Shown in pieces: positions 1,482-30,725 of a stretch of 45,437 nt of DNA. A program made the position numbers and the translations under genes. The DNA comes from Rubrivivax sp. (GTDB lineage Bacteria > Pseudomonadota > Gammaproteobacteria > Burkholderiales > Burkholderiaceae_C). The stretch spans positions 1-45,437 of the forward strand of contig JADLIA010000076.1 in the NCBI GenBank assembly GCA_020848515.1, in the 5' to 3' direction. A model generated the notes under the pieces. That model worked only from the letters and a program-made list of their open reading frames with translations. It made no database searches and had not been told where the DNA came from. Each line of letters starts with the position of its first letter. Position 1 is the first letter of the stretch.

Positions 1482-3619
1482 TCCAACTGAACCACGTCAC
1501 CCTGCGCCGCGGCGCCAAAGTGCTGCTCGACGGCGCCAGCGTCACCATCCACCCGGGCGAGAAGGTCGGTCTGGTGGGTCGCAACGGCGCCGGCAAATCG
1601 ACCTTGTTCGCGCTGCTCAACGGCACGCTGCACGAGGACGGCGGCGACTTCTCGATGCCCGCCGGCTGGCGCCTGGGACAGGTCGCGCAGCACATGCCCG
1701 AGACCGCCGAGGCCGCCACCGATTTCGTGCTGACGGGCGACGAGCGCTTGTCCCACCTGCGCGAGCAGCTATCGAAAGCAGAGCATGCGCACGACGGCAT
1801 GGCCATCGCCCAGGCCCACAGCGACCTGCACGACGCCGGCGCCCACGACGCCCGCGCGCGCGCCGAGGCGCTGATCCTGGGGCTGGGCTTTCAGGTGGCG
1901 CAGCTCGACCAGGCGGTGGACAGCTTCTCGGGTGGCTGGCGCATGCGCCTGCAGCTGGCACGCGCGCTGATGGCGCCCAGCGACCTGCTGCTGCTGGACG
2001 AACCCACCAACCACCTGGATCTGGACGCCCTGGTCTGGCTGGAAGGCTGGCTGGCGCGCTACCCCGGCACGCTGATCGTGATCAGCCACGACCGCGACTT
2101 TCTGGACGCGGTCACGCGCGTCACGCTGCACATCGAAGGCGGGCGGCTGGCGCGCTACGGCGGCAACTACAGCGCCTTCGAGGACTTGCGCGCCCAGCAG
2201 CTCAGCCTGCAGCAGGCGGCCTACGCCAAGCAGCAGGACAAGATCGCCCACCTGCAGAAGTTCATCGACCGCTTCAAGGCCAAGGCCACCAAGGCCAAGC
2301 AGGCGCAAAGCCGCGTGAAGGCGCTGGAGCGCATGGAACGCATCGCCCCGGTGCTGGCCGAGGCCGAGTTCCAGTTCGAGTTCAAGGCCCCGCTCAGCCT
2401 GCCCAACCCCATGCTGGCGATCCGCGACGCGGCTTTCGGCTACCGTGCCGACGCTATCAAAAAAGAAGCTGCTGGCGCAGACCCGGCAAGCACAAGCGGC
2501 GCTTCCGGCACTGAAGGTGCGGCACCCCCGGCCTACGCCACCAGCGCCACCGTGCTGGCCGAACAGGCCGCGCGCGGCGAGCTGCCGCCCGGCCTGCGGC
2601 CCGGCGACCGCGTGATCCTGCGCGGCGTCAGCCGCACCGTGCTGGCCGGCCAGCGCATCGGCATCCTGGGTGCCAACGGGCAAGGCAAATCCACCCTGGT
2701 CAAGACCATCGCGCGCGAGCTGGCGCCGCTGGCCGGCAGCGTGACCGAGGGCAAGGGCCTGGCCATCGGCTACTTCGCCCAGCAGGAGCTCGACGTGCTG
2801 CACACCGACAGCACGCCGCTGGAGCACATGGTGCGGCTGGCGCGCCAGAGCGGGCGCGAAGCCAGCGAAGAGGCGCGCGAGCAGCAACTGCGCAACTACC
2901 TGGGCAGCTTCAGCTTTCCGGGCGAGATGGTCAGCCAGCCCGTGGGCCAGTTCAGCGGCGGCGAAAAAGCCCGCCTGGTGCTGGCCATGATCGTCTGGCA
3001 GCGCCCCAACCTGCTGCTGCTGGACGAGCCCACCAACCACCTGGACCTGGCCACGCGCGAGGCGCTGGCGGTGGCGCTCAACGAATTCGAAGGCACGCTG
3101 ATGCTGGTCAGCCACGACCGCGCCCTGCTGCGCAGCGTGTGCGACGAGTTCTGGCTGGTGGCGCGCGGCAGCGTGCAGCCGTTCGACGGCGACCTGGAAG
3201 ACTACCAGCGCCACCTGCTGGATGAAGCGCGCCGGTTGCGCGAGCAGGTCGCCGCGCGCGCTCCTGAAACCATAGCTGACGGCGCAAGCCAGGAAAGCGC
3301 CAGGGCCCCAAAACCTGCTGAACCGCCACTCAATCCGGCCGAGCAGCGGCGCGCCCAGGCGCAGCGGCGCCAGCAGCTGGCGGAGCAGACCCGGCCGCTG
3401 CGGCGCGCACTGGCGCAGGCCGAGCAGCGCATGGAACAGCTCGGCGCCGAGCGCAGCGCGCTCGAGCAACGCCTGTCCAGCCCCCTGCCCGCCGGCGACA
3501 TCGCCGACGCCGGCCGGCGACTGAAGGCGCTGGCCGAGGAGCTGCAGACGCAGGAAGACGAGTGGCTGCGCCTGTCGGGTGAGATCGAAGCCATCGAGCA
3601 AGGCGCCGCCGCAACCTGA
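1478..3619 (+). CDS. ABC-F family ATPase, YheS-like, with two repeat-derived insertions
   Basis: A 713-residue soluble protein with two ABC ATPase domains and no membrane segments, as in ABC-F proteins that act on the ribosome. Domain 1 has Walker A GRNGAGKST (residues 34-42), signature SFSGGWRM and Walker B LLLLDEPTNHLD. The inter-domain linker carries the family's helical run KAKATKAKQAQSR. Domain 2 has GANGQGKST, FSGGEKARLVLA and LLLLDEPTNHLD. It matches E. coli YheS more closely than EttA or Uup. It has an extra alanine/glycine-rich stretch at about residues 326-380 inside the second domain, and another at about 595-611 before the C-terminal coiled coil. Both lie on copies of the dispersed palindromic repeat (positions 2453-2507 and 3262-3309). 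ATG 1478 fits the conserved N-terminus MIQLNHVTLRRG. YheS function is not fully known; a translation-factor role is inferred from the family. Confidence 0.92.
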   Translation: MIQLNHVTLRRGAKVLLDGASVTIHPGEKVGLVGRNGAGKSTLFALLNGTLHEDGGDFSMPAGWRLGQVAQHMPETAEAATDFVLTGDERLSHLREQLSKAEHAHDGMAIAQAHSDLHDAGAHDARARAEALILGLGFQVAQLDQAVDSFSGGWRMRLQLARALMAPSDLLLLDEPTNHLDLDALVWLEGWLARYPGTLIVISHDRDFLDAVTRVTLHIEGGRLARYGGNYSAFEDLRAQQLSLQQAAYAKQQDKIAHLQKFIDRFKAKATKAKQAQSRVKALERMERIAPVLAEAEFQFEFKAPLSLPNPMLAIRDAAFGYRADAIKKEAAGADPASTSGASGTEGAAPPAYATSATVLAEQAARGELPPGLRPGDRVILRGVSRTVLAGQRIGILGANGQGKSTLVKTIARELAPLAGSVTEGKGLAIGYFAQQELDVLHTDSTPLEHMVRLARQSGREASEEAREQQLRNYLGSFSFPGEMVSQPVGQFSGGEKARLVLAMIVWQRPNLLLLDEPTNHLDLATREALAVALNEFEGTLMLVSHDRALLRSVCDEFWLVARGSVQPFDGDLEDYQRHLLDEARRLREQVAARAPETIADGASQESARAPKPAEPPLNPAEQRRAQAQRRQQLAEQTRPLRRALAQAEQRMEQLGAERSALEQRLSSPLPAGDIADAGRRLKALAEELQTQEDEWLRLSGEIEAIEQGAAAT
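2453..2507. repeat. Dispersed palindromic repeat, copy A (in frame inside the ABC-F gene)
   Basis: The stretch starts CTATCAAAAAAGAAGCTGC and carries TGGCGCA followed by CAAGC...AAGCG, the core shared with six other places in the window. It sits inside the second ATPase domain and adds in-frame, alanine-rich residues. The right arm is degraded. Confidence 0.7.
3262..3309. repeat. Dispersed palindromic repeat, copy B (in frame near the ABC-F 3' end)
   Basis: It reads CTGAAACCATAGCTGACGGC, then a GCAAGCC...AAAGCGCCAG core matching the family. It lies between the second ATPase domain and the C-terminal coiled coil, a place where extra residues should do little harm. Confidence 0.65.
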
Positions 3620-3677
3620 TGGGCTTGGCGTTCAAAAACCGCGACGCATGACCCCTTGGTCCTCGCGGCGCAGCGAG

Positions 3678-3740
3678 GTCATCCGTCATCCGTCATCCGT
3701 CATTGGTCGTTGGTCGTTGGTCGTTGGTCGTTGGTCATGC
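3678..3740. repeat. Heptanucleotide tandem repeat (nine units)
   Basis: Nine consecutive 7-bp units in one register: three GTCATCC, one GTCATTG, four GTCGTTG and a final GTCATGC. The array lies in the 257-bp gap between the ABC-F gene and the small membrane-protein gene at 3877. Seven-bp arrays can change length by slippage. It is not in a gene, so any effect would be on spacing or transcription. Confidence 0.9.
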
Positions 3741-3876
3741 GAGTTGGCATGAACCGTCACGCCACCGACGGCGCGCCGTGGCGGCCGCCGCGCGCCCCGC
3801 GCGCCCGTGTGGACGACCGATGGGTGCGGTACAGTGCAGGCCGTCCAGCGTTCATCCACCAGGGAAGGCATCCAAC

Positions 3877-4125
3877 ATGAGCATCATCGTCACCCTCGTC
3901 GTCGGCTTCATCGTCGGCCTGATCGCGCGCGCCATCATGCCGGGCAACCAGAGCATGGGCCTGATCATGACCACCATCCTGGGCATCGTCGGCTCGCTGG
4001 TGGCCGGCTACGGCGGCGCCGCCCTGGGCCTGTACGCAGCCGGCACGCCGGCTGGCTGGATCGCCTCGGTGGTCGGCGCCATCATCGTGCTGTGGATCTA
4101 CGGCATGGTGAGCAAGAAGGGCTGA
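3877..4125 (+). CDS. GlsB/YeaQ/YmgE-family small membrane protein
   Basis: An 82-residue, very hydrophobic protein with three predicted membrane segments (about residues 2-20, 28-48 and 58-77) and the glycine-rich pattern GFIVGLIARAIMPG typical of the GlsB/YeaQ/YmgE (transglycosylase-associated) family. Members are linked to envelope or general stress, but their biochemical role is unknown. ATG 3877 has an AGGGAAGG-like purine run 5' to it. The gene faces puuD tail to tail and stands alone. The tandem 7-bp repeat lies about 140 bp upstream. Confidence 0.9.
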   Translation: MSIIVTLVVGFIVGLIARAIMPGNQSMGLIMTTILGIVGSLVAGYGGAALGLYAAGTPAGWIASVVGAIIVLWIYGMVSKKG

Positions 4126-4174
4126 GCGTCGCCTCTGCCCGCCACCGGCAACCCACGCCGGCGGCGCGTCGGGC

Positions 4175-5383
4175 TCACTTGCCCTGACCTTCGAACCAGC
4201 GGCCCACCAAGGCGCGCTCGTCCTCGGTCATCTGGGTCGAATTGGCCAGCGGCATCAGCTTGCTGGCCACCACCTGCTGGTAGATCAGCTGGGCGTTGGC
4301 GCTGACCAGCGCCTCGCTGTCCACGCGCAGGTTCTTCTGCTGCACGGCCTCGCCGTGGCAGACGTAGCAGCGCTGCGCCAGGATCGGCTGGATCTGCGCG
4401 TAGCTCACCTTGGCCGGCAGGGCCGCCGCGGGCACCGCCGGGGCCGGCTTGAGCCAGGCGATCAGCGCCAGCAGCAGCACCACGCCGGCGGCCGCATAGG
4501 GCCAGGGGTTGCCCACGCGGCCCAGCTTGTAGCCGTGGCGCTGCACGAAGAACAGGCGAATCAGCGCGCCGGCCAGCATCAGCACCAGCAGAATCGCCCA
4601 GCGCTGCGGGTGGCTGTAGATGAAGCTGTAGTGGTTGCTGAGCATGGCCACCAGCACCGGCAGCGTGAAGTAGGTGTTGTGCACGCTGCGCTGCTTGCCG
4701 CGCTTGCCGTAGATGGCGTAGTCGGCCGGGTTGTAGGGCTGGCCGCTGGTCATGGCCGCCACCACCTTGCGCTGGCCGGGGATGATCCAGAAGAACACGT
4801 TGGCGCTCATGGCGGTGGCCAGCGACGCGCCCACCATCAGAAACGCCGCACGGCCGGAAAACAGCTGGAACGCAATCCACGACGAGCACACCACCACCGC
4901 CAGCACCAGCGCGCCGACGATGCGGTCGCCGTTCGCACGCTGACCGAAGATGCGGCAGATGGCGTCGTAGATGAACCAGAACGCCGCCAGGAACACCAGC
5001 GCGCCAATGCCGGCGGCCAGCGGCGACCAGTCGAACACCTGTTTGTCGACCAGGAAGATGCCGGCGTTCCACAGGTAGAGCACCACGAACAGCGCAAAGC
5101 CGGACATCCAGGTCCAGTAGCTTTCCCAATAGAACCAGTGCAGGTGGCTGTCGATGCCGCCCTTGGGCGCCACCATGTACTTCTGCGCGTGATAAAAGCC
5201 CCCGCCGTGCACCGACCAGATGGCGCCGTCGACACCCTTGGCCTTCAGGTCGTCGGCGGTGGGCGCCAGCAGGCTGCTGTCGAGAAACACGAAATAGAAG
5301 GACGAGCCGATCCAGGCGATGGCGGTGATGACGTGCAGCCAGCGCAGCAGCAGGTTGGCCCAGTCGAGAAGATATGCTTCCAT
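4175..5383 (-). CDS. puuD: PuuD: membrane urate oxidase with C-terminal cytochrome c domain
   Basis: A 402-residue protein that matches PuuD, a cytochrome-c-linked urate oxidase that makes 5-hydroxyisourate in the inner membrane. It starts MEAYLLDWANLLLRWLHV and has about eight or nine membrane segments up to residue 310, with conserved histidines (His17, His59, His65, His80). A short linker leads to a c-type cytochrome domain with the haem motif CYVCH at 339-343 and a possible axial Met in KLMPLANS. The start at 5383 is preferred because AAGGGA lies 9 bases upstream; an in-frame ATG at 5401 is the alternative. The product feeds HiuH, encoded nearby on the same strand. The TTGTATACAA palindrome at 5513-5522 lies in its upstream region. 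No separate uricase (UOX) is seen in the window. Confidence 0.93.
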   Translation of the reverse strand: MEAYLLDWANLLLRWLHVITAIAWIGSSFYFVFLDSSLLAPTADDLKAKGVDGAIWSVHGGGFYHAQKYMVAPKGGIDSHLHWFYWESYWTWMSGFALFVVLYLWNAGIFLVDKQVFDWSPLAAGIGALVFLAAFWFIYDAICRIFGQRANGDRIVGALVLAVVVCSSWIAFQLFSGRAAFLMVGASLATAMSANVFFWIIPGQRKVVAAMTSGQPYNPADYAIYGKRGKQRSVHNTYFTLPVLVAMLSNHYSFIYSHPQRWAILLVLMLAGALIRLFFVQRHGYKLGRVGNPWPYAAAGVVLLLALIAWLKPAPAVPAAALPAKVSYAQIQPILAQRCYVCHGEAVQQKNLRVDSEALVSANAQLIYQQVVASKLMPLANSTQMTEDERALVGRWFEGQGK

Positions 5384-5512
5384 GCGTGAGTGTCCCTTCA
5401 TCGGGCTTGCCACCGCGGGCGCTGCAAGCCGCTTTCAGGAGATCGCGCTATCGGGGGGCGTCACGCACTGCCTCATGGACGACTCTCGGGCACCGCTGCG
5501 ATCTCGGTCGGA

Positions 5513-5522
5513 TTGTATACAA
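5513..5522. promoter_or_regulatory. Putative GntR-type operator 1 (TTGTATACAA)
   Basis: A perfect 10-bp palindrome (12 bp with the flanking A and T), 130 bp upstream of puuD. The same ten bases recur at 7151-7160 beside the GntR regulator gene. The T-G-T...A-C-A pattern fits operators known for FCD-type GntR repressors. Assignment to the regulator at 7191 is inference. Confidence 0.65.
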
Positions 5523-5582
5523 TTGGGTATGCAACTCGGGGGGCTTGACGCCCAGGTTTTCCCTTGTGCCGAGCTTGCCACG

Positions 5583-5610
5583 TTGGGCTGCGAATCGGCG
5601 ACAATATAGG
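5583..5610 (+). promoter_or_regulatory. Possible sigma-70 promoter for the small gene at 5647
   Basis: TTGGGC at 5583-5588 and TATAGG at 5605-5610, 16 bp apart, precede the small gene by about 37 bases. Both hexamers are only fair matches. Confidence 0.3.
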
Positions 5611-5646
5611 GTTTTCGTCCACACACCACTTCACAAGGATCACACC

Positions 5647-5805
5647 ATGGGCAACAAGATCGTCACCGAGGCCATGCGCAAGGCCACCCCGCCGCTGCCC
5701 GGCGCCCCCCGCGTCAAGCAGGCCGATGGCCAGCGCCGCAGCCTGGAGCGCGGCGTGCACACGCGCAGCAAGAAGAATCCGGGCAAGCGCCCGCATCAGG
5801 GCTGA
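5647..5805 (+). CDS. Small basic conserved-looking protein, unknown function
   Basis: A 52-residue protein starting MGNKIVTEAMRKATPPLPG and ending SKKNPGKRPHQG. It is rich in Arg, Lys, Pro and Gly, with no membrane segment or cysteine. I do not recognise it. The case for a real gene is strong for its size: AAGGA stands 8 bases before the ATG, a promoter-like pair lies upstream, and a textbook intrinsic terminator follows at 5836-5861. The basic, disordered-looking composition would suit nucleic-acid or ribosome binding, but that is a guess. It sits between puuD and xdhC on the opposite strand to both. Confidence 0.72.
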   Translation: MGNKIVTEAMRKATPPLPGAPRVKQADGQRRSLERGVHTRSKKNPGKRPHQG

Positions 5806-5835
5806 GCGACCAGCGGCCTTCGCCCGCCCTCAGCC

Positions 5836-5861
5836 ATGGCGCCCAGCAGGCGCCATTTTTT
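5836..5861 (+). terminator. Intrinsic terminator of the small gene
   Basis: ATGGCGCC and GGCGCCAT form a perfect 8-bp stem around a CAGCA loop, followed by a run of six T. It starts about 30 bp after the small gene's stop codon. On the minus strand no T run follows, so it acts on the plus strand only. Confidence 0.92.
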
Positions 5862-5865
5862 GGCT

Positions 5866-6684: not shown

Positions 6685-6763
6685 GGTGTGCCGCGCCCAT
6701 GGGGGGCCACGGCCCGGCCGGCCGCCCGGTCATGCCGGCCACCCGGGGCCTGAGCGGGCGCGC

Positions 6764-7190: not shown

Positions 7191-7889
7191 ATGGAAACCC
7201 TGTCCAGCACCGATGCGATCGTTCAGGCGCTGACCCACGCCATCGTCGATCACCGACTGCAACCCGGCAGCAAGCTGGGTGAGCAGGCGCTGGCGGACCA
7301 TTTTGGCGTCTCGCGCACGCTGGTGCGGCAGGCCCTGTTCCAGCTGTCCCAGAAGCGCCTGGTGACGCTGGCGCCGGCGCGCGGCGCTTTCGTCGCCAGC
7401 CCGTCGGCCGACGAGGCGCGGCAGGTGTTCGCGGTGCGCCGCATGCTGGAGCTGGAGCTCACGCGCGCCTTCGTGCGCCAGGCCAGCCCGGCCGACATCG
7501 ACGCCCTGCGCGCGCACGTGGCGGCCGAGCAGGCGGCGGTGGCCGGTGGCGACGTGGCCGGCCGCACCGAGTTGCTGGGCGACTTCCACGTGCGCATGGC
7601 CGAACTGCTGGGCAACGCCGTGCTGGCCGAGGTGCTGCGCGACCTGCTGGCGCGCTGCGCCATCGCCATCCTGATGTACCAGAGCAGCCACGCCGCGCAC
7701 GATTCGGCCGCCGAGCACGCGGCGCTGGTGGACTGTTTTGCCCAGGGCAACGTGACGCAGGCGGTGAAACTGATGCGCGCCCACCTGGACCATGTGGAAG
7801 CCGGCCTCCAGCTCGACCAGCCGGTCCCCACACACGACATCAAAACAGCTTTGATGACCACCAGTCAAGCGCCAGCAGCTATTGTTTGA
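7191..7889 (+). CDS. GntR-family (FCD) transcriptional regulator of purine/ureide genes
   Basis: A 232-residue regulator. An N-terminal winged helix-turn-helix (LGEQALADHFGVSRTLVRQAL at about residues 28-48, then RLVTLAPARGAFV) is joined to an FCD ligand domain. In the latter, HVRMAELLGN and EHAALVDCFAQGN carry histidines typical of the metal or ligand site. ATG 7191 is preferred because it starts directly before the DNA-binding domain. The flanking TTGTATACAA palindromes fit this class. The surrounding genes suggest the effector is a purine-pathway intermediate, but which one cannot be told. The last 16 or so residues are encoded by copy C of the dispersed repeat, so the C-terminus is probably a recent replacement. 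puuE starts 5 bp after the stop. Confidence 0.9.
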   Translation: METLSSTDAIVQALTHAIVDHRLQPGSKLGEQALADHFGVSRTLVRQALFQLSQKRLVTLAPARGAFVASPSADEARQVFAVRRMLELELTRAFVRQASPADIDALRAHVAAEQAAVAGGDVAGRTELLGDFHVRMAELLGNAVLAEVLRDLLARCAIAILMYQSSHAAHDSAAEHAALVDCFAQGNVTQAVKLMRAHLDHVEAGLQLDQPVPTHDIKTALMTTSQAPAAIV

Positions 7890-7893: not shown

Positions 7894-7894
7894 C

Positions 7895-8857: not shown

Positions 8858-10648
8858 ATGCCCTACACGCTGGATCAACTCAACGCGGCACCGCTGGCCG
8901 AAGCCGAGCGCATGCTCGACGGCCTGTACGAGCACACGCCCTGGATCGCCGCCCAGGCGCTGCAGGCGCGACCGTTCCAATCGCTGGCGCAGCTCAAGCA
9001 GGCCATGGCCGGCGCGCTGGCGCGCGCCAGCGTGGACGCCCAGCTGGCGCTGATCCGCGCCCACCCGGAACTGGCCGGCAAGGCCATGGAAGCCGGCACG
9101 CTGACCAGCGAATCGACCGGCGAGCAGCAGCGCGCCGGCCTCACCGCCTGCACGCCCGAGGAGCTGGCGCGCATCCGCCAGCTCAACGCCGACTATCAGG
9201 CGCGCTTCGGCTTTCCGTTCGTGCTGTGCGTGCGCGGCCCGCGCGGCACGGGCCTGGCCAAGCAGCAGATCCTCGACACCTTCGAACGCCGCCTGCATCA
9301 CCACCCCGACTTCGAGCGCGCCGAGGCGCTGCGCCAGATCCACCGCATCGTCGAGATCCGCCTGGCCGACAAGTTCGGCGCTCCGCCCACGCTGGGCGAA
9401 CAGGTGTGGGACTGGCACGAGAAGCTGGCCCAGCACAGCGACCCCGGCTGCGCCGAGGCCGGCCAGCTGACCGTCACCTACCTGACCGACGCGCACCGCG
9501 CCTGCGCCCAGCGCATCAGCCGCAACATGCGCGATGCCGGGTTCGACGACGTGCACATCGACGCCGTCGGCAACGTGGTGGGCCGCTACAAGGCCGACCC
9601 GGGGGCGCGCAACCCCAAGACCCTGCTCACCGGCAGCCACTACGACACGGTGCGCAACGGCGGCAAGTACGACGGGCGCCTGGGCATCTTCGTGCCCCTG
9701 GCCTGCGTGCAGGAGCTGGCGCGCACCGGGCGCCGCCTGCCGTTCGACCTCGAAGTGGTCGGCTTTGCCGAGGAAGAAGGCCAGCGCTACAAGGCCACCT
9801 TCCTGGGTTCGGGCGCGCTGATCGGTGACTTTCGCCCCGAATGGCTGGACCAGCGCGACGCCGACGGCATCAGCATGCGCGAGGCCATGCAGCACGCCGG
9901 CCTGTGCGTGGACGACATCCCCAAGCTCAAGCGCCACGCCGCCGACTACCTGGGCTTCATCGAGGTGCACATCGAGCAGGGCCCGGTGCTGAACGAACTG
10001 AACCTGCCGCTGGGCGTGGTGACTTCCATCAACGGCAGCGTGCGCTACCAGGGTGCCTACATCGGCCAGGCCAGCCACGCCGGCACCACGCCCATGGACC
10101 GCCGGCGCGACGCCGCCTGCGCTGCGGCCGAGCTGGCGCTGTATCTGGAGCGCCGCGCCGCGCAGGACGGCGACTCGGTCGGCACCATCGGCATGCTGAC
10201 CGTGCCCAATGGATCGATCAACGTGGTGCCGGGGCGCTGCAACTTCAGCCTGGACCTCCGCGCCCCCAGCGATGCGCAGCGCGACGCCCTGGTGAGCGAC
10301 GTGCTGGCCGAGGCCCAGGCGATCGCCGAGCGCCGCGGCGTGCGCCTGCAGCTCGAAGAAACCATGCGCGCCGCCGCCGCACCCTGCGACGCAGCGCTGC
10401 AGCAGCGCTGGGCCGACGCGGTGGAGGCGCTGGGCCTGCCGGTGTTTCGCATGCCCAGCGGCGCCGGCCACGACGCCATGAAGCTGCACGAGGTGATGCC
10501 CCAGGCCATGCTGTTCGTGCGCGGCGAAAACGCCGGCATCAGCCACAACCCGCTCGAATCGACCCACGCCGACGACATGGAGCTGGCGGTGCGCGCCATG
10601 CAGCACCTGCTGGACGGCATGGCGCGCGATACGCTATCACAATCATAG
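8858..10648 (+). CDS. Fused OHCU decarboxylase (UraD) - allantoate amidohydrolase
   Basis: A 596-residue bifunctional protein. Residues 1-165 are UraD, which decarboxylates OHCU to S-allantoin: the catalytic motif RAHPELAGK holds His69, followed by TSESTGEQQRAG and FPFVLCVRG. Residues 175-590 are an M20-type allantoate amidohydrolase/carbamoylase. Its metal ligands lie in GSHYDTVRNGGKYDGRLG, AEEEGQR and EVHIEQG, with dimer-region TSINGSVRYQG and GQASHAGTTPMDRRRDA, and C-terminal GAGHDA and SHNPLE. The fusion joins the steps before and after allantoinase, whose gene (puuE) lies 6 bp upstream. Allantoate is released as ureidoglycine, CO2 and ammonia. The last codons and the TAG stop come from repeat copy D. 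Such fusions are known in Burkholderiales. Confidence 0.94.
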   Translation: MPYTLDQLNAAPLAEAERMLDGLYEHTPWIAAQALQARPFQSLAQLKQAMAGALARASVDAQLALIRAHPELAGKAMEAGTLTSESTGEQQRAGLTACTPEELARIRQLNADYQARFGFPFVLCVRGPRGTGLAKQQILDTFERRLHHHPDFERAEALRQIHRIVEIRLADKFGAPPTLGEQVWDWHEKLAQHSDPGCAEAGQLTVTYLTDAHRACAQRISRNMRDAGFDDVHIDAVGNVVGRYKADPGARNPKTLLTGSHYDTVRNGGKYDGRLGIFVPLACVQELARTGRRLPFDLEVVGFAEEEGQRYKATFLGSGALIGDFRPEWLDQRDADGISMREAMQHAGLCVDDIPKLKRHAADYLGFIEVHIEQGPVLNELNLPLGVVTSINGSVRYQGAYIGQASHAGTTPMDRRRDAACAAAELALYLERRAAQDGDSVGTIGMLTVPNGSINVVPGRCNFSLDLRAPSDAQRDALVSDVLAEAQAIAERRGVRLQLEETMRAAAAPCDAALQQRWADAVEALGLPVFRMPSGAGHDAMKLHEVMPQAMLFVRGENAGISHNPLESTHADDMELAVRAMQHLLDGMARDTLSQS

Positions 10649-14204: not shown

Positions 14205-14230
14205 CGCCCTGAATGTCTGCATCAGAATGG

Positions 14231-14275
14231 CGGCTGGCGCAGGCTGGGCCTGCGCCGGCCGCTCCTGTTTTTGGG
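14231..14275 (+). terminator. Intrinsic terminator of fdxA
   Basis: CGGCTGGCGCAGG (14231-14243) and CCTGCGCCGGCCG (14249-14261) make a 13-bp stem with one T-G wobble around a five-base loop. CTCCTG and a run of five T follow. Confidence 0.85.
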
Positions 14276-14280
14276 GTACC

Positions 14281-14547
14281 GGTGCAGTGTCTCGCGCTGT
14301 CAGGCACTTACAGAAGCCAGAACAAGGCTTGCGGCAAGGCGCGGCTCGCAGCCCATGCTGGCGGCCTTGGCAAGAGGCGCAACGCCGCCGCAAGCCTTTT
14401 TCCGGCTTCCCGCAGGGCGAGCCGCCGAGGGGCCATCTGCTTGGTGGCGTGGCCTTGACATGGCTCCACCATGCCTGCGGCCACGCGCCGCCCAGCTGGC
14501 CCCTTGGCGACTCGCTATAAGTACCTGACAGCGCGAAACACTGCACC
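14281..14547. mobile_element. 267-bp element with 30-bp inverted ends and internal hairpins (MITE-like)
   Basis: The first 30 bases (14281-14310) and last 30 bases (14518-14547) are inverted repeats with two mismatches. Inside, 14324-14335 (AAGGCTTGCGGC) pairs with 14387-14398, extended by GAAGCC 14313-14318 with GGCTTC 14404-14409. A second hairpin pairs 14429-14435 with 14497-14503 and 14447-14454 with 14479-14486. The whole can fold as a three-way junction. No convincing protein is encoded on either strand and I see no clear target duplication. It ends two bases before the ATG of the reductase gene at 14550 and fills the gap after the fdxA terminator. A non-autonomous transposable element or a structured RNA would both fit. 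Confidence 0.72.
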
Positions 14548-16465: not shown

Positions 16466-17224
<759 letters not shown>

Positions 17225-17336: not shown

Positions 17337-17412
17337 CAGGAATCACGCCAGGCCGGCGCAGCACCTGCCGTGCGTTACCATGCCGTCTCACCCCACCCAC
17401 CAGGAGACTCGC

Positions 17413-19242
17413 ATGGCCTTGCCCCACCGCCCCACCACCCTGGCCGCCCTGGCCGCCGCCACCCTGCTGGCCGGCTGCGCCAGCAGCTTGAACTACACGC
17501 CGCCGGCGACACCGGTCACCCCCGAAGGCGGCTCGGGCTGGACCGACAAGCCGGGCTGGGCGACGCACAAGTTCGCCGTCGCCGCCGCCAACCCGCTGGC
17601 CACCGACGCCGGCTACCAGGTGCTCAAGGCCGGCGGCAGCGCGCTCGATGCCGCCATCGCGGTGCAGATGGTGCTGACCCTGGTCGAGCCGCAGTCCAGC
17701 GGCATCGGCGGCGGCGCCTTCCTGCTGCACGCGGCCGGGGGTGACGTCACGGCCTGGGACGGACGCGAGACGGCGCCGGCCGCCGTCGACGACAAGCTGT
17801 TCCTGGGCGCCGATGGCAAGCCCCTGCCGTTCCATGACGGCGTGGTCGGCGGCCGCTCGGTCGGCGTGCCGGGCACGGTGCGCATGCTCGAGCAGGCACA
17901 CCGTCAGCATGGCCGTCTGGCCTGGGCCGAGCTGTTCAAGCCCGCCATCGTGCTGGCCGAGCAGGGTTTTGCCGTCAGCCCGCGCCTGCACACCCTGCTG
18001 AAGAACGAGCAGCACCTGAAAAAGGACCCGGTGGCCGCCCGCCACTTCTACGACGCCGCCGGCAACCCCTGGCCGGTCGGGCATGTGCTGAAGAACCCCG
18101 AACTGGCGGCGGTGCTCAAGGGCATTGCCGCGCGCGGCTCGACCGCCCTGCTGGAAGGCCCGGTGGCGCAGGCCATCGTCGACAAGGTGCAGAAGCACCC
18201 CACCAACCCCGGCAAGCTGACGCTGGCCGACCTGGCCGGCTACGCCCCCAAGCGGCGCGCGCCGCTGTGCCACGATCTGCGCGTGCCGGCCAGCGGCAAG
18301 GCCTATGAGGTGTGCGGCTTTCCGCCGCCGTCGTCGGGCGCCATCGCGGTCGGCCAGATCCTGGGCATCCTGGCCCACACCCCGGCGGCCAGCATGGCGG
18401 CCGGCGCCGACGGGTTGCCCACGGCCGATTGGCTGCACTACTACATGGAAGCGTCGCGGCTGGCGTTTGCCGACCGTGCGCTGTACGTGGCCGACCCCGA
18501 CTTCGTGCAGCCGCCCGCCGGCAGCTGGATGAGCCTGCTGGATCCGGCCTACCTGAAGAGCCGCGCTGCGCTGATCGGCACGCAGAGCCTGAAGGTGGCG
18601 CCGCCGGGCAAGCCCGTCGGCACCCGAACCAGCTTCGCCCCCATGGCCAGCCAGCCCGAATACGGCACCAGCCACATCAGCATCGTCGACCCCTTCGGCA
18701 ACGCGCTGGCCATGACCACCACCATCGAGGACCAGTTTGGCGCCCGTCAGATGGTCAAGGGCTTTCTGCTGAACAACGAACTGACCGACTTCAGCTTCGC
18801 CCCGACCGACGCCCAGGGCCAGCCGATCGCCAACCGCGTGCAGCCCGGCAAGCGGCCGCGCTCGTCGATGGCGCCCACCCTGGTGTTCGAAAAGACCACC
18901 GACGGCCGCCGCGGCCCGCTGGTGATGAGCGCCGGCAGCCCGGGCGGCGCCCTCATCATCCACTACACCGCCAAGACCCTGCACGGCGTGCTGGGCTGGG
19001 GCCTGCTGCCGCAGCAGGCCATCAACCTGCCCAACTTCGGTTCGCTCAACGGCCCCAGCCTGCTGGAGGAAAAGAAGTTCCCCGCCGCCACCGTCGAAGC
19101 CCTGCGCTCGCGCGGCGCGGAAGTGCGCGAGATGAATCTGACCAGCGGCCTGCAGGCCATCACCCGCGGCACCGTGCATGGCCAACCGACCTGGCTGGGC
19201 GGCGCCGATCCACGGCGTGAAGGCGTGGTGATGGGCGACTGA
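17413..19242 (+). CDS. ggt: Gamma-glutamyltransferase, predicted lipoprotein
   Basis: A 609-residue Ntn-hydrolase that cleaves or transfers the gamma-glutamyl group of glutathione. It is made as one chain that self-cleaves. The nucleophile is Thr419 in GTSHISIVDPFGNALAMTT, which becomes the N-terminus of the small subunit. The large subunit shows VEPQSSGIGGGAFLL and DGRETAP; the small subunit shows NNELTDFSF, RPRSSMAPT and SAGSPGG. The N-terminus has a signal peptide with lipobox LLAGC (Cys22), so the enzyme is probably anchored in the periplasm as a lipoprotein. ATG 17413 is chosen because AGGAG lies 7 bases upstream and the signal peptide starts there. It stands alone; a hairpin follows the stop. 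Confidence 0.94.
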   Translation: MALPHRPTTLAALAAATLLAGCASSLNYTPPATPVTPEGGSGWTDKPGWATHKFAVAAANPLATDAGYQVLKAGGSALDAAIAVQMVLTLVEPQSSGIGGGAFLLHAAGGDVTAWDGRETAPAAVDDKLFLGADGKPLPFHDGVVGGRSVGVPGTVRMLEQAHRQHGRLAWAELFKPAIVLAEQGFAVSPRLHTLLKNEQHLKKDPVAARHFYDAAGNPWPVGHVLKNPELAAVLKGIAARGSTALLEGPVAQAIVDKVQKHPTNPGKLTLADLAGYAPKRRAPLCHDLRVPASGKAYEVCGFPPPSSGAIAVGQILGILAHTPAASMAAGADGLPTADWLHYYMEASRLAFADRALYVADPDFVQPPAGSWMSLLDPAYLKSRAALIGTQSLKVAPPGKPVGTRTSFAPMASQPEYGTSHISIVDPFGNALAMTTTIEDQFGARQMVKGFLLNNELTDFSFAPTDAQGQPIANRVQPGKRPRSSMAPTLVFEKTTDGRRGPLVMSAGSPGGALIIHYTAKTLHGVLGWGLLPQQAINLPNFGSLNGPSLLEEKKFPAATVEALRSRGAEVREMNLTSGLQAITRGTVHGQPTWLGGADPRREGVVMGD

Positions 19243-19420: not shown

Positions 19421-22400
19421 ATGGACATGAACCGGCGCCAGTTCTTCCGCGTCAGCGGAGCTGGCTTGGCCGCGTCCAGCCTGGTCGCGCTGGGTTTTTC
19501 ACCCACCGCGGCCCTGGCCGAGACACGCGCCTTCAAACTCACCCGTGCCAGCGTGTCGCGCAGCACCTGCCCGTATTGCTCGGTCAGTTGCGGCATGCTG
19601 ATCTACAAGCTGGGCGACACCGCCAAGAACGTCAGGGAACACGTGATCCACGTGGAAGGCGATCCCGACAACCCGGTCAACCGCGGCACGCTGTGTCCCA
19701 AGGGCGCCGGCGTCATGGACATGATCAACTCGCCCGGGCGCGTCATCTACCCGTCGGTGCGCGAGGCTGGCAGCAAGGAATGGAAGCGCATCAGCTGGGA
19801 CGAGGCGCTGACCCGCGTGGCCAGGCACATGAAGGCCGACCGCGACGCCAACTTCCAGGCCAAGAACGACGCCGGCACCACGGTCAACCGCTGGCCCACC
19901 ACCGGTTTTCTGGTGTGCAGCTCGTCGTCCAATGAATCCAGCTATCTGTCCGTCAAGGTGGCACGTGCCTTGGGGATGGTGGGGATAGATACCCAAGCAC
20001 GCGTCTGACACGCACCGACGGTGACCAGTCTGGGCCCGACGTTCGGTCGCGGAGCGATGACCAATTCGTGGACTGACATCCGCAATACGGATCTCATTCT
20101 CGTCATGGGCGGCAATGCCGCCGAAGCCCACCCCGTCGGCTTCCGATGGGCGGTGGATGCCATGGAAAAGCGCAAGGCAAGGCTGATTTCGGTCGACCCG
20201 CGCTTCAACCGCACCTCCTCGGTGGCCGACCTGTACGCGCCGATCCGCAACGGCACGGACATCGCCTTCCTGGGTGGCGTGATCAACTGGCTGCTGAGCC
20301 ACGACAAGATCCATCACGACTACGTCAAGTTCAACACCGACGCCACCTTCCTGCTCAAGCCCGACTTCAAGCTGGAAAACGGCATCTTCAGCGGCTACGA
20401 CGAGGCCAAGCGCAAGTACGACAAGGCCAGCTGGGGCTACCAGCTCGACGAGAACGGCCACGTCAAGGTCGACGACAGCCTGCAGGACCCGCTGTGCGTC
20501 TACCAGCAGCTCAAGAAGCACTACAGCCGCTACACGCCGGAGATGGTCAGCCGCATCTGCGGCACGCCGCAGGACAAGTTCCTGAAGGTGTGCGAAATGC
20601 TGGGCGAGATGTCCGCGCCCGACAAGACCAGCACCATCCTCTACGCGCTCGGCTGGACACAGCACAGCGTGGGCAGCCAGAACATCCGCACCATGGCCAT
20701 GATCCAGCTGCTGCTGGGCAACATGGGGCGGCCCGGCGGCGGCGTGAACGCGCTGCGCGGACACTCCAACGTGCAGGGCGTGACCGACATGAACGCCTAC
20801 GCCGAGGTGCTGTCGGGCTACCTGAGTGCGCCCACCGACGCCGACGACACCTTCGAAAAGTACCTGGCCAAGCGCACGCCCAAGCCGATGCGGCCGAACC
20901 AGTTCAACTACTGGAGCAACTTCCCGCGCTTTCACATCAGCCTGATGAAGTCCTACTACGGCAAGGCGGCCACGGCGGACAACCAGTACTGCTACGACTG
21001 GGTGCCCAAGCTGGCCGGTGGCTTCGATGCGCTGCACATGTTCGAGCTGATGCACCAGGGCAAGATGACCGGCTTCATCTCGCAGGGGTTCAACCCCCTG
21101 GCGACGGTGCCCAACAAGAACAAGCTGTCGGCGGCGCTGTCCAAGCTGAAGTACCTGGTCATCATCGATCCGCTGGAAACCGAAACCGGTGAGTTCTGGC
21201 AGAACCACGGCCCCTTCAACGACGTCAAGCCCGAAAGCATCCAGACCGAGGTGTTCCGTCTGCCTTCGGCCTGCTTTGCCGAAGAGGAGGGCAGCTTCAC
21301 CAACTCCAGCCGCATCGCGATCTGGAAGGAGCGCGCGCTCGAACCCCCCGGCGAAGCCAAGGTGGATTCGGAGATCATGGCGCGGCTGTTCCTCAAGCTG
21401 CGTCAGATGTACGCCAAGGACGGCGGCGCCTTCCCCGACGCCATCGCCGGTCTGGCCTGGGACTACGTGCAGCCCGAGGCCCCATCGGCCACCGAAGTGC
21501 TGCGCGAAATCAACGGCAAGGCGCTGTCCGACGTGCTGGCACCGCCCGACCCCAACAACCCCACGGCGCCGCGCCAGGTGCTGGTGAAGGCGGGTCAGCA
21601 GGTGCCGGGCTTTGCCATGCTGCGCGACGATGGTTCCACCGCCTGCGGCAACTGGCTGTACGCCGGCTGCTGGAGCGAAGCCGGCAACCTGACCGCGCGG
21701 CGCGACGTATCCGACCCCACCGGTCTGGGCGTGTACCAGAACTGGGGCTTTTCCTGGCCGGCCAACCGCCGCATCCTGTACAACCGCGCCAGCGCCGACA
21801 AGAACGGCAAGCCGTGGTCGGAGAACAAGAAGTACGTGTACTGGAACGGCAAGGCCTGGGCCGGCGCCGACGTCCCCGACATGCGGCCCAACGCCGCACC
21901 CGAGGAAAACGTCGGTTCGTTCATCATGAACCCCGAGGGCGTGGCCCGACTGCACGCCATCGGCCTGGCCGACGGCCCGTTCCCGGAGCACTACGAACCG
22001 TTCGAAACCCCGATCGGCGTCAACCCCCTGCACCCCGACAACCCCAAGGCCATCAGCAATCCGGCGGCGCGGGTGTTCAAGGGCGACCTGGAGGCCTTTG
22101 GCAAGAAGGAGGAGTTCCCGTACTCGGCCACCACCTACCGGCTGACCGAACATTTCCACACCTGGACCAAGCACGCGCGGCTCAACGCCATCGTGCAGCC
22201 CGAATCGTTCGTCGAAATCAGCGAAGAGCTGGCGAAGGAAAAGAACATCCGGCACGGCGACCAGGTCAAGGTCAGCAGCAACCGCGGCCACATCGTGACG
22301 CGGGCGGTGGTCACCAAGCGCATCAAACCCTGGAACGTGAACGACCAGAAGGTGCACCTGGTGGGCATCCCCTTCCACTGGGGTTTCAAGGGTCAGACGA

Positions 22401-26615: not shown

Positions 26616-26619
26616 ACCC

Positions 26620-28014
26620 ATGACCATCGATCGTCGCCACTTCGTCGCCGGCCTGGCTGGCTGCGCCGCACTGGCGGGCTGTGCCGCCGCACCTCCGGTA
26701 TCCGGCGTTGGCGTTCAAACCGCGCCGATGCCCGCGTTCATCGGCCAGTCGACCCAGACCTTGCTTCCCAGAGGCAAGGCGCCGCGCGTGCTGGTCGTGG
26801 GCGGCGGCTGGGGCGGTCTGACCACGGCGGCCAACCTGCGCAAGCAGGCGCCAGGCGCAGAAGTGGTTTTGATCGATCGCAACCCGCAATTCTTCTCCAG
26901 CCCGTTGTCGAACATGTGGCTGGTCGGCATGGTGGATGGCGAACTGCTCACGCAGGACTACCTGCGTGTGTCGGAGCAGCTGGGCTATCGGTTCGTGCAG
27001 GCCGAGGTTCAGGCCATCGACCGCGCGCAGCGTCGTGTGACCACCAGCCTGGGGACGATCGACTACGACTGGCTGGTGCTGGCACCGGGCATCCGTTACC
27101 AGTACGAAGCCTGGTTCGGCAACGACCGCGTGGCGGCCGACGCCGCACGCACGCGCTTTCCCTGCGCCTATGCCAGCAACAGCGAGTTCCTGGCCATCAA
27201 GCGATCGCTGCAGGACTTCAAAGGGGGCGAGCTGGTGATGAACCTGCCGCCTCCCCCGCAACGCTGCCCACCCAGCCCCTACGAGCGCGCCTGCCTGATC
27301 GCCTGGTACTTCAAGACGAACAAGATCAAGGGCCACATCACCATCCTCGACCACAAGCCCGCCATCACCCCCATCGGACCCGGCTACCGAGCCGCGTTCG
27401 ACGAGCTGTACAAGAACTACATCACCTATGTGCCCAACGCACACGTGCAGGAGGTGGACCCATTCAACCGCCGCATCCGTACCCGCGCCGGTGATCAGCG
27501 CTTCGACCATGCCATCCTGATGGCACCGCACAAGGCCGGCGACCTCGCCTGGCTGGCAGGCACCGTCAGCGACCGCAGCGAGGGCTGGGCCGACGTCGAT
27601 CAGGTGACCATGCAGGTCCGGGGCGACGAGCGCACCTTCGTCATCGGTGACGCCATCCAGGCGGTTTCGTCTCTGCCCTTCCGCTACTACCCCAAGAGTG
27701 CCCACATTGCCAACCGCCTGGGTCGCATCGTCGCCTACCAGATCAGCGAACGACTGGCAGGTCGCGCGCCCGAGCGGCGCCTGCCCGACAACCTGTGCTA
27801 CATGGTGGTCAATGGCACGCCGGGGCAGGCGCTCAACGTTCAGTTCGACTACGACTTCGACCCTGAAGGTCGCGTGCGCCAAGTACAGCGCGACTTCAAC
27901 GAACGAACGCCGGCCCTGTTTCAGGACGACTTCCGCTGGCTGGACTTCATGTTCGGAGAGATGTTTGGCGGCATAGCGCCGCCGGTGCGGCCCAACCCGG
28001 CCTTCCGGACCTGA
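26620..28014 (+). CDS. FCSD-like flavoprotein lying between selA and selB
   Basis: A 464-residue FAD/NAD(P)-fold protein resembling the flavoprotein subunit of flavocytochrome c sulfide dehydrogenase (FccB/SoxF). It starts with a Tat-like signal (DRRHFVAG) that overlaps two possible lipoboxes (LAGC at Cys15 and Cys21), so it is probably exported and perhaps lipid-anchored. FAD motif RVLVVGGGWGGLTTAANL is followed by DYDWLVLAPG. The FCSD hallmark CPPSPYERAC and a later Cys in LPDNLCYMVV could form the redox disulfide. FVIGDAIQAV closes the FAD site. It is close-packed in the sel cluster: 4 bp after selA and 13 bp before selB. No cytochrome subunit is encoded beside it. A role with sulfide or selenide is inferred from neighbours and family. 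Confidence 0.85.
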   Translation: MTIDRRHFVAGLAGCAALAGCAAAPPVSGVGVQTAPMPAFIGQSTQTLLPRGKAPRVLVVGGGWGGLTTAANLRKQAPGAEVVLIDRNPQFFSSPLSNMWLVGMVDGELLTQDYLRVSEQLGYRFVQAEVQAIDRAQRRVTTSLGTIDYDWLVLAPGIRYQYEAWFGNDRVAADAARTRFPCAYASNSEFLAIKRSLQDFKGGELVMNLPPPPQRCPPSPYERACLIAWYFKTNKIKGHITILDHKPAITPIGPGYRAAFDELYKNYITYVPNAHVQEVDPFNRRIRTRAGDQRFDHAILMAPHKAGDLAWLAGTVSDRSEGWADVDQVTMQVRGDERTFVIGDAIQAVSSLPFRYYPKSAHIANRLGRIVAYQISERLAGRAPERRLPDNLCYMVVNGTPGQALNVQFDYDFDPEGRVRQVQRDFNERTPALFQDDFRWLDFMFGEMFGGIAPPVRPNPAFRT

Positions 28015-28027
28015 CTGCGGCGAGCTC

Positions 28028-29929
28028 ATGATCGTCGGCACCGCCGGTCACATCGACCACGGCAAGACCACGCTGGTGCGCGCGCTCACCGGCGTGGACA
28101 CCGACCGCCTGCCCGAAGAAAAAAAGCGCGGCATCAGCATCGAGCTGGGCTACGCCTTCCTCGAACCACCGAGCGGCGCGCGCATCGGCTTCATCGACGT
28201 GCCAGGCCACGAGCGGCTGGTGCACACCATGGTGGCCGGCGCCAGCGGCATCGACTTCGCGCTGCTGCTGGTGGCGGCCGACGACGGCCCCATGCCGCAG
28301 ACGCTTGAACACCTGGCCGTGCTCAGCCTGCTGGGCCTGACGCGCGGCGCCGTCGTCATCACCAAGGCCGACCGCGCCACGCCCGAGCGCGTGCAGGCGG
28401 TGCGCGAGCAGACGCGCGCGCTGCTGGTCGGCACGACGCTCGAAAGCGTCCCGGTGCTGGCCGTGTCGGCCCACACCGGGGCCGGCATCGACGACCTGCG
28501 AGCTCTTCTTTTTGTAGCTGCTGGCGCAGAACAGGCAAGCGCCGAGGCCGGATCTGACTCCAAAGCGCTGCGCCTGGCGATCGACCGCGCCTTCACCCTG
28601 CAGGGCACCGGCACGGTGGTCACCGGCACCATCCACGCCGGCTCGGTGGGGGTGGGCGACGAGCTGGCGATCGTGCCTGGCACCTTGCGCGCCCGTGTGC
28701 GCAGCCTGCACGCGCAGAACCAGGCGGTGGCACGCGCCCACGCCGGCCAGCGCTGTGCCGTGGCCCTGTCCGGGCTGGCGCGCGACGAGGTGACGCGCGG
28801 TCAATGGCTGACCGCCCCCGCCGTGGCGCTGGCGAGCGAACGCCTTGACCTGCGCCTGACGCTGTGGCCGGGCGAAGCCCAGGCGCTGCGCTCGGGCACC
28901 CGGGTGCAGGCCCACCTGGGCGCGGCCCACGTCAACGCCACCGTGGCTCTGCTGGACAGCGACGCACTGGCGCCCGGCGCCACCGCCCTGGCGCAGTTGC
29001 TGCTGCAGGCCCCGGTGGGCGCCTGGCATGGCGAACGCGTGCTGCTGCGCGATGCGGCAGCCAGCCGCACGCTGGCGGGCGGTCGCGTGCTCGACCCCCT
29101 GGCCCCCGCCCGCTACCGGCGCACGCCGCAGCGGCTGGCCGAGCTGAGCGCCCTGGGTCTGCCGAGCGCTGCCGAGCGCCTGACGGCGCTGCTGGCGGTG
29201 GCGCCGCACGGCGTCGATCTGAAGCGATTTGCCGCCGCCCAGGGCCTGGCCCACCCGCCCGACCACGCGCTGCCGGCGCCGGCGCTGGTGCAGGACGGCC
29301 TGGCCCTGGGCGCCGACCAGGCGCACACGCTGGCGGCCGCTGCGCTGGCGGCGCTGCAGCGTTTTCACGACCAGCAGCCCGACGAGCTGGGCCCCGACAG
29401 CGCCCGCCTGCGCCGCCTGAGCGCACCGCGCCTGCCAGCCCCCTTGTGGCAGGGCTTGCTGGCGCGTCTGGCGACCGAAGGGCAACTGGTGCTGCACGGG
29501 GCGGTGGTGCACCTACCCAGCCACGGCGCGCAGCTGTCGGCCACCGAAGCGCGCATTGCACAGAAGGTGGCGCCGGCGCTGGTGCAGGCCGGCTTTCAGG
29601 GCGCCTGGGCGCGCGATCTGGCGCGCGACGCCGCCGAGCCCGAGCCGCTGGTGCGCACCACGCTGGCGCGGCTGGCGCGGCGCGGCGAGCTGCACCAGAT
29701 CGTCAAGGACCTGTACTACCCGCCCGACACCCTGCAGCGGCTGGCGGCCCTGGCGCGCCAGGTGGGCGCCGCACACCAGGGCATCGTGCGGGCGGCCGAC
29801 TTCCGCGACGCGACCGACCTGGGCCGCAAGCGGGCGATTCAGATTCTGGAATACTTCGACCGCATCGGTTTCACGCGCCGCATCGGCGACGAGCACCGAT
29901 TGCGCACGGACTGCGCGCTGTTTTCGTAG
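28028..29929 (+). CDS. selB: SelB: selenocysteine-specific elongation factor
   Basis: A 633-residue GTPase that carries Sec-tRNA(Sec) to the ribosome and binds the SECIS hairpin. G1 is GHIDHGKTT (7-15), G2 is [10 protein letters not shown]3 is DVPGHER, and G4 appears as TKAD. Domains II and III follow from [18 protein letters not shown]. The C-terminal winged-helix repeats that bind the SECIS are visible, ending [22 protein letters not shown]. Repeat copy F (28500-28550) encodes the alanine-rich stretch at about residues 158-175, exactly where the GTPase domain passes into domain II. The reading frame is kept. The tRNA-Sec gene starts 6 bp after the stop. Confidence 0.96.
28500..28550. repeat. 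Dispersed palindromic repeat, copy F (in frame inside selB)
   Basis: It reads CTTTTTGTAGCTGCTGGCGC, then AGAACAGG and CAAGCGCC. It lies at the joint between the G domain and domain II and adds about 17 alanine/serine-rich residues without breaking the frame. Confidence 0.8.
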
Positions 29930-29935
29930 GTCAAC

Positions 29936-30031
29936 GGAAGGGCAACCATCCTGGTGGGTGGGCCGGGCTTCAAACCCGGTGGGTGGCGCCAAGCGTCGCC
30001 GGGTGGGTTCGACTCCCATGCCCTTCCGCCA
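29936..30031 (+). tRNA. selC: tRNA-Sec (anticodon TCA)
   Basis: A 96-base gene including the encoded CCA. Acceptor GGAAGGGC pairs with GCCCTTCC, an 8-bp stem typical of bacterial tRNA-Sec. The anticodon loop CTTCAAA reads UGA, in stem GGGCTTCAAACCC. A long extra arm (GGGTGGCGCC...GGCG-like) and T-loop GGTTCGACTCCC follow. The layout matches E. coli selC closely. It lies 6 bp after selB, so the two are probably transcribed together. Confidence 0.96.
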
Positions 30032-30176
30032 CCCCGGCGTCCGACGGGGCCGCCCACCGCCACACCACGCGCTTCAGGCCGCGCCTGGGATCACCGGCGC
30101 TGCCGCATGACCGATGCGTCCGCGGTGCGCCGCGCGGTCATCCTGGATACGGCAGGTACCGAAGGCGCACCCGGCA

Positions 30177-30656
30177 TCAAGGCCGCAGCGGGATCGGTGT
30201 GGCGTGATCGATCGGCACCGCCGTGATGGCGTTCTGCGGCGAGCCTTCGATCAGCTTGTCGGAGTAGGTCAGATACACCAGCGTGTTGCGCGGCGCATCC
30301 ACCATGCGCACCACGCGCAGGCGCTTGAACAGGATCGACATGCGTTCGCTGAACACCTCGTCCTCGCGCCGCAGCGGCTCCTTGAACTGCACCGGCGCCA
30401 CCTGGCGACAGGCGATGGAAGCCTCGGCACGGTCTTCGGCCAGCCCCAGCCCGCCCTTGATGCCGCCGGTGCGCGCGCGCGAAACGTAGCAGGTCACCCC
30501 CTGCACCAGCGGGTCGTCGTAGGCCTCGACGACGATCTTGTGGTTGGGGCCGATCCACTGGAAGGCGGTGCTGACGTCGCCGATCTTCTGCGCCAGCGCG
30601 CCGGTGCAGGCGGTGCAAGCCAGCGCCAGCAGCACGATCCGAGAACCCTTGGTCAT
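30177..30656 (-). CDS. creA: CreA-family periplasmic protein
   Basis: A 159-residue protein with an N-terminal signal peptide ending near ALAQ. The mature part follows E. coli CreA nearly word for word in its motifs: [64 protein letters not shown]. Two cysteines (in VTCYV and ASIACRQV) may form a disulfide. The molecular function of CreA is unknown. It faces the selB-selC unit tail to tail across about 145 bp, in which I see no further gene, and its upstream region is repeat copy G. Confidence 0.93.
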
Positions 30657-30665
30657 CGCTTCAAT

Positions 30666-30725
30666 TCCAATAAAAAATGTTGTTGGCGCAAGTGTAGTTT
30701 GCGCCAGCAGCTATGGTTTTAATAG
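30666..30725. repeat. Dispersed palindromic repeat, copy G (between creA and the GcvH-like gene)
   Basis: It reads CCAATAAAAAATGTTGTTGG, then GCGCAAG-TGTAG-TTTGCGCC, then AGCAGCTATGGTTTTAATAG. Both arms are well kept. It fills most of the 97-bp spacer between two divergent genes and so overlaps their promoters. Confidence 0.85.

Follow-up and report, generated by a model that had tools for sequence, protein, structure and literature searches.

A long two-dyad DNA motif dispersed in and between genes of Rubrivivax and its relatives: a possible self-recognition signal

The stretch of DNA analysed here (the window) is a 45,437-nucleotide contig, JADLIA010000076.1, of a draft genome of Rubrivivax sp. 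(GCA_020848515.1; 2.48 Mb, 77% complete; labelled G000 below). Its subject is a motif of about 68 bp, which stands at seven places first noted in the window and in many more across the genome. By sequence comparison, most of the motif sites inside genes that can be tested evidently replace existing codons and leave the length of the protein unchanged. Three orthologous gene sites were examined for conservation of the motif as DNA, which all of them show, and the abundance of the motif has shifted more than once among relatives. We tentatively favour the reading that the motif is a recognition signal in double-stranded DNA that works like uptake sequences, most likely for self-recognition in natural transformation.

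The motif and its placement

A profile was seeded with 51 motif copies taken from 394 kb of other contigs of the same genome; the covariance model built on it, R1, kept 49 of the seeds, two being dropped as false. The edges of the motif are sharp in the seed profile, where information starts about 17 bases before a TAGCTG core and stops about 50 bases after it. The unit opens with GCTAT-N7-ATAGC, continues with CTGCTGGCGC-N11-GCGCC and closes with an A/T-rich end. The second dyad can be written GGCGC-N11-GCGCC; the two dyads are adjacent, A/T tracts lie at either end of the motif, and its information content is 50-62 bits. The preliminary description of the window had defined the family by the core of an imperfect palindrome. 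The seven repeats are real, since R1 recovers all of them (34.9-64 bits, E 3.7e-11 to 2.2e-22), and they do form a family, but the exact core matches a single window copy without mismatch, and up to three mismatches give five matches where 1.69 are expected, so that the full profile is needed. The seven copies, and a weaker site in the first of the genes, are as follows.

2447-2518, plus strand: copy in the ABC-F gene (1478-3619) where the linker domain meets the second ATPase domain, in frame and free of stops; R1 36.3 bits
3254-3325, plus strand: copy in the ABC-F gene at the junction of the second ATPase domain and the C-terminal domain; R1 39.1 bits
1719-1790, minus strand: weak, length-neutral site within the ABC-F gene, in its first ATPase half; R1 26.3 bits
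7829-7900, minus strand: copy that gives the final codons and the stop (7889) of a GntR-family gene (7191-7889; Pfam GntR, FCD); R1 34.9 bits
10627-10698, plus strand: copy that gives the stop (10646-10648) of a UraD-AllC fusion gene (8858-10648; Pfam OHCU_decarbox, Peptidase_M20); R1 64 bits
17274-17345, plus strand: intergenic copy between the called genes 16466-17224 and 17380-19242; R1 50.7 bits
28496-28567, plus strand: copy in the selB linker that follows the GTPase domain; R1 56.3 bits
30661-30732, minus strand: intergenic copy between the called genes 30177-30656 (minus) and 30754-31221 (plus); R1 51.6 bits

Two copies in the ABC-F gene and one in selB are thus in frame, and the motif supplies the stop codons of the GntR-family and UraD-AllC genes, both as had been described. 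One additional, doubtful match, at 14212-14294, scores 25.1 bits under R1 with an internal insert included. The nearest named relative by SelB (85%), 'Burkholderiales bacterium 68-10' (L051), carries a 47.8-bit copy at a matching distance downstream of selB.

Placement was surveyed in 439.5 kb with a simple gene caller (90.8% coding), in which 85 copies score at least 30 bits; one formate dehydrogenase gene split over two stretches was counted there as two hosts. Intergenic copies number 36, a further 23 lie over the 3' end of a gene and four at a 5' end, and 22 are inside genes, in both orientations. A similar survey in G015, a congener outside the training set of the position weight matrix (PWM), places 53 of 232 sites inside genes. 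Gene 3' ends are favoured: convergent gene pairs (48 of 393) hold 15 of the 63 copies outside genes, and divergent pairs (51 of 393) hold four. Inside genes the reading frame is biased: nine of ten copies on the strand of the gene share one frame, and a different frame is shared by 11 of 12 on the opposite strand. In the larger set of PWM sites the favoured frames account for 24 of the 28 in-gene sites of G000 and 38 of the 53 of G015. The host proteins include Pfam domains of MutL, DnaX, LpxB, Dxr, HemD and TrpF, and also an NadD-like protein. The proposal that in-gene sites fall at domain joints fits selB and the two strong ABC-F copies, which lie in linkers, but the testable in-gene sites at large include conserved enzyme domains as well.

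Coding sequence at the motif sites

The preliminary description had the repeats inserting into coding sequence. This fails as a general rule, for most testable sites have no element-sized extra stretch relative to motif-free relatives or to solved homologues. Relatives bear labels that begin with G, single loci or contigs labels that begin with L, and the relatives were called motif-rich or motif-poor by their match counts. The stretch compared around the dxr site is 43 residues long in all but one of 21 congeners, the exception having 42, whether the motif is present or absent (six of the 26 other dxr loci found were left out), and it is 43 residues long in 15 of 15 for lpxB and in 14 of 14 for a trmH-like gene. 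Motif scores reach at least 27 in 12 of 15 motif-rich species at dxr, 11 of 12 at lpxB and 12 of 12 at trmH, and are 5.2 or lower in all motif-poor species (six, three and two, respectively). Among the motif-rich species, G151 has a weak dxr motif (16) and G155 is without the motif in lpxB.

The selB site gives a similar result. R1 finds at least 23 bits at the same site in seven of the 14 motif-rich congeners searched, the genome of the window included, and the compared stretch is 37 residues long both in the window and in the motif-poor G156; it is longer in six congeners, by 4 to 10 residues in five and by 17 in one. Measured against motif-poor congeners, the largest excess at dxr, lpxB, trmH, selB and three more open reading frame (ORF) sites at the selB locus is four residues, with rows on non-coding ORFs disregarded and the frame of those three sites taken without a separate check. 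The comparison with solved structures covered nine in-gene proteins and excluded GluQ-RS and NnrDE, in which the site falls in an unaligned stretch. Dxr, LpxB, TrpF, NadD, GcvP and the RlmB-like protein have at most about five extra residues relative to their solved homologues, and no element-sized gap.

The ABC-F gene is less uniform. The site at 1719-1790 has PWM scores of 28.0 in G000 and 38.1 in G015, of 16.7 in G004 and 14.8 in G003, which belong to other genera, and of -17 to -55 in 26 other orthologues; G000 and G015 have no extra residues there. The loop at 2447 exceeds that of G026 by about 12 residues and is far longer than in other genera, the motif stands at the same place in G015, and this loop is perhaps insertion-like. 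The linker at 3254 is highly variable in length among 30 orthologues, so length is no guide to insertion at that site. The alignment of SelB and ABC-F orthologues that had been suggested as a check does not bear out insertion in selB, and maybe does so at 2447 in the ABC-F gene.

G000 and G015 were further compared over 112 orthologue pairs (median identity 80%). Shared in-gene sites make up 11 of 12 evaluable sites in G000 and 11 of 18 in G015, counts that leave out two sites (60.5 and 50.1 bits) without an aligned counterpart. Eight sites differ between the two genomes, of which six are gap-free and two gapped; the alignments were viewed for five of the six gap-free sites, the 25.3-bit site being excepted. 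Both an overwriting and an insertion route may exist, the length-neutral outcome being the commoner among the in-gene sites tested.

Conservation of the motif as DNA was followed through A/T third bases in dxr, lpxB and trmH, for which 11, 10 and 10 species were picked as motif-bearing. In these species the fraction of codons with A or T as the third base is 0.50-0.53 within the motif, compared with 0.08-0.11 in the rest of the gene. Where the residue is identical, such a third base recurs in another species in 0.69-0.74 of cases within the motif and in 0.20-0.42 beyond it; in species without the motif the same sharing is 0.26, 0.15 and 0.50, the last value coming from four cases.

Pairing between the arms is not kept in the same way. 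Covariation is absent from the 63 copies outside genes, in which the core stem is paired at 0.787 against 0.785 when shuffled, and in the in-gene copies the inner pairs fall below chance. An RNA fold was tried and, after a repeat on copies outside and inside genes, rejected: RNAalifold yields two pairs with zero covariation. Arms that do not covary point to recognition of duplex DNA and not to an RNA hairpin or a hairpin in single-stranded DNA.

Distribution among relatives

A profile and a genome scan had been proposed as a check on the family, with no more copies than chance as the adverse outcome. Copies far exceed chance. A short pattern gives 310 + 305 matches in the whole 2.48-Mb genome and 17 + 17 for its reversed control (615 against 34). 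The PWM scan of the 394 kb of training DNA gives 108 positions of at least 15 bits, that of 800 kb of G015 gives 232 sites of at least 25 bits, and the reversed control gives none in either. The density in the two congeners is 0.24-0.29 sites per kb, with strands balanced in both.

Any match at all is found in 87 of 150 genomes of the family, and the motif is abundant, taken throughout as at least ten matches per genome, in 46 of them; no more than 33 matches were counted per genome. Within the genus it is abundant in 20 of 29 genomes: 19 have at least 38 matches, with a ceiling of 150 on the count, and another has 11. The remaining nine, with 0-4, are motif-poor, and three of them are 97-99% complete. 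In an order-wide sample of 250 genomes, with few members of this family, the motif is abundant in four, all of this family, and outside the family there are at most two matches per genome, the best (45 bits) in one draft. Two strong matches, G299:C557:1871-1942 and C44:7506-7577, come from one draft assembly in a different family of the order and point to contamination or transfer. The hosts we infer to be Comamonadaceae-type bacteria. Five plasmid records contain the motif, all weakly. The open-access literature, a body short of most subscription journals, yielded no report on a motif of about 68 bp of this kind.

The shifts in abundance are evident in two protein trees. The ABC-F tree (30 rows) requires six changes between motif-rich and motif-poor, three of them forced by well-supported branches, and the character is clustered, only four of 500 shuffles giving as low a number. 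The Dxr tree (21 rows) requires four changes, two of them forced, and 67 of 500 shuffles are as low.

The three largest motif-free stretches in the 800 kb of G015 were inspected descriptively, with 10 of 20, five of eight and three of 22 genes scanned. The first has a recombinase, a phage terminase and a methylase (phage or defence functions) among host-like genes, and the second has giant surface-protein genes; the third is taken up below.

Two other features of the window may be recorded. Between two called genes, at 14281-14547, lies a 267-bp element whose terminal inverted repeats measure 33 nt and are 91% complementary; it folds nearly end to end. The first 28 bases of another contig of the same genome (L046, position 1) are identical to the end of its repeat, which suggests a multi-copy miniature inverted-repeat transposable element (MITE). 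The window also holds a selenocysteine locus (Rfam, Pfam), with SECIS_3 at 20003-20061, selB at 28028-29929 and the selenocysteine tRNA at 29936-30027.

A recognition signal and its alternatives

An in-place origin, a preference for certain frames, a bias to gene ends and sporadic loss are together what uptake sequences show. Under the favoured reading, a sequence-specific receptor would favour DNA that bears the motif, and recombination with DNA of the cell's own kind, or selection for it, would drive motif-like sites towards the consensus. Lineages that lost the system would then lose their motifs by decay.

Several observations weigh against this reading. The motif is far longer and richer in information than uptake sequences of 9-12 bp, and its consensus is relaxed, with an 18-base core that is perfect at 10 of 85 sites. 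ComEC is present in 26 of 29 congeners, among them both motif-rich and motif-poor ones, and does not separate the two. The motif-rich G155 and G165 are without the motif in dxr. Synonymous identity that is not split by base shows no clear excess inside the motif over elsewhere (0.737/0.694 in dxr, 0.727/0.746 in lpxB and 0.686/0.757 in trmH), which we attribute to G+C-biased third bases. Even spacing is weak or nominal in G000 (114 of 3000 simulations) and not seen in G015 (coefficients of variation 1.16 and 0.92, obtained without simulation), and the third large motif-free stretch of G015 is a cobalamin-type operon. The two gapped sites of the G000/G015 comparison look inserted. Formate dehydrogenase, which has a 67.6-bit copy, contains 21 residues that are missing from two solved enzymes, and the spacer that follows dxr is 96 nt long in G015, where it holds a 69-bit copy, against 30-49 nt in nine congeners. 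We know of no competence test in these organisms. The length of the motif, its relaxed consensus, ComEC in motif-poor species and the lack of experiment hold our confidence in the uptake-like signal somewhat below an even chance, ahead of the next alternative.

In that alternative, which we regard as unlikely but still a serious competitor, the motif binds a protein that organises the chromosome or acts in regulation (nucleoid-associated, gyrase-type or other), and it is selected at many sites for reasons unrelated to uptake. A pair of dyads that has A/T tracts and is loose in consensus resembles the site of a dimeric protein, and the independent variation of the arms, the conservation at DNA level within genes and the balanced strands are of the same kind. 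Near absence from several congeners (nine of 29 with 0-4 matches) would be odd for a housekeeping site, as would the large information content. Among the matches listed for complete genomes, the motif is by eye spread and not confined.

It is less probable again that the copies are mobile elements of REP (repetitive extragenic palindromic) or MITE type, in units of about 66 nt, some of them in frame as with the palindromic elements of Rickettsia, and that their in-place look results from later trimming. The sharp edges, the formate dehydrogenase stretch and the dxr spacer of G015 all speak for such elements. In formate dehydrogenase, however, all congeners with close orthologues have some stretch at this place, six with the motif and four with other, longer inserts, so that the motif may or may not have brought it; the loop is a possible hotspot for unrelated repeats. 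The longer in-frame inserts are in the formate dehydrogenase genes L263, L264 and L265 (of G150, G166 and G164) and L261 (of G167); the first three carry a C+T-rich palindromic repeat of the CCCTCTCCC type. Against the 96-nt dxr spacer of G015 stand five species with 170-401 nt, three without the motif and two with a weak copy, and one species with 14 nt. Over seven spacers, the median length with the motif minus that without is -4.5, 4.5, 15, 19, 65, 232 and 491 nt, some of these values coming from single species; five of the seven are thus longer with the motif, and two are about length-neutral, as are most testable in-gene sites. At one near-neutral spacer, 11 species with the motif have 55-61 nt and four without it have 43, 61, 66 and 80 nt. 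Apart from dxr, the genes that bound the spacers (rseP, lpxD, fabZ) are named provisionally from gene order.

A mobile origin had been suggested in REP/RAYT form, RAYT being the REP-associated tyrosine transposases, from one degenerate transposase gene in the window.

38320-38991, plus strand: transposase-related gene, the one match in this genome; NF047646 25.8 bits (cut-off 80)

This origin is not supported. The score against NCBI's REP-associated transposase model lies below the cut-off, the protein has no Pfam match, and what we take to be the catalytic HUH motif and tyrosine seem, by eye, to be missing. Homologues occur in 142 of the 150 family genomes regardless of the motif, a motif copy lies beside the homologue in two of nine motif-rich genomes, and the arms do not covary. 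In G015, 20 Y1-transposase matches, several with identical scores, form an IS200/IS605-like family.

An RNA element at gene ends, a terminator or a stabiliser of mRNA ends whose in-gene copies are tolerated, would suit the preference for gene 3' ends and convergent pairs and the G+C-rich dyad followed by a T-rich stretch, but it is very improbable given that compensatory pairing is absent from the copies outside genes, that 22 of the 85 copies are within genes, where either orientation occurs, and that no Rfam family is found at motif sites at gathering scores.

If the uptake-like reading is true, a signal of about 68 bp has moulded how core enzymes such as Dxr, LpxB and SelB are encoded in part of the family, MutL and DnaX having sites as well, and it would offer a concrete sequence to test as the basis of selective DNA uptake there. 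Repeats inside genes need not be insertions, and comparison of length with motif-free relatives tells the two apart.

Several known repeat families share features with the motif. The beta-proteobacterial repeat element (BRE) has Comamonadaceae among its hosts and some copies inside genes; its copies are about 90 bp long, with a mean of 69% G+C in Bordetella and at most 29 copies per genome (PMC3110155). The motif is set apart from BRE by description only. Like REP with RAYT, it is a short imperfect palindrome in many copies that are frequent 3' of genes; unlike REP, it is longer, about a quarter of its copies are inside genes, pairing is not kept, and no tie to a RAYT-like gene is shown. Like the Rickettsia palindromic elements, it places repeat DNA in frame in unrelated metabolic genes. 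Those elements, about 150 bp long, become integrated and code for an additional peptide (PMC10969869), whereas most testable motif sites add no residues; the formate dehydrogenase copy would fit.

The closest likeness is to the uptake signal sequences (USS) of Pasteurellaceae and the DNA uptake sequences (DUS) of Neisseriaceae. Like these, the motif occurs in hundreds of copies on both strands, in and out of genes, with a favoured frame for each orientation, a bias to gene ends, an in-place origin in coding sequence and sporadic loss. Unlike these, it is about 68 bp long and not 9-12 bp, its consensus is relaxed and not strong, some copies are insertion-like, and its density is lower. Van Passel reported that uptake motifs show a preferred frame and, in Pasteurellaceae, a preference for gene ends (PMC2346458). 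Redfield and colleagues applied the same gap test to USS, found 24% of 474 alignments gapped and judged that USS are not insertions (PMC1626085). Treangen and colleagues found many Neisseria DUS opposite unrelated sequence or gaps, and inferred recombination (PMC2397512), which fits the mixed picture of overwriting and insertion obtained here. It is possible, and we put it lower than the general reading, that Comamonadaceae-type bacteria, which lie outside the Pasteurellaceae and Neisseriaceae, have in the motif a self-DNA uptake signal with a new, long, two-dyad architecture. Such a signal would explain selective transformation in Acidovorax and Verminephrobacter: A. temperans accepted only conspecific DNA in transformation, and foreign DNA competes poorly in V. 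eiseniae, a selectivity for which the relevant part of the same source names no uptake sequence (PMC4212676).

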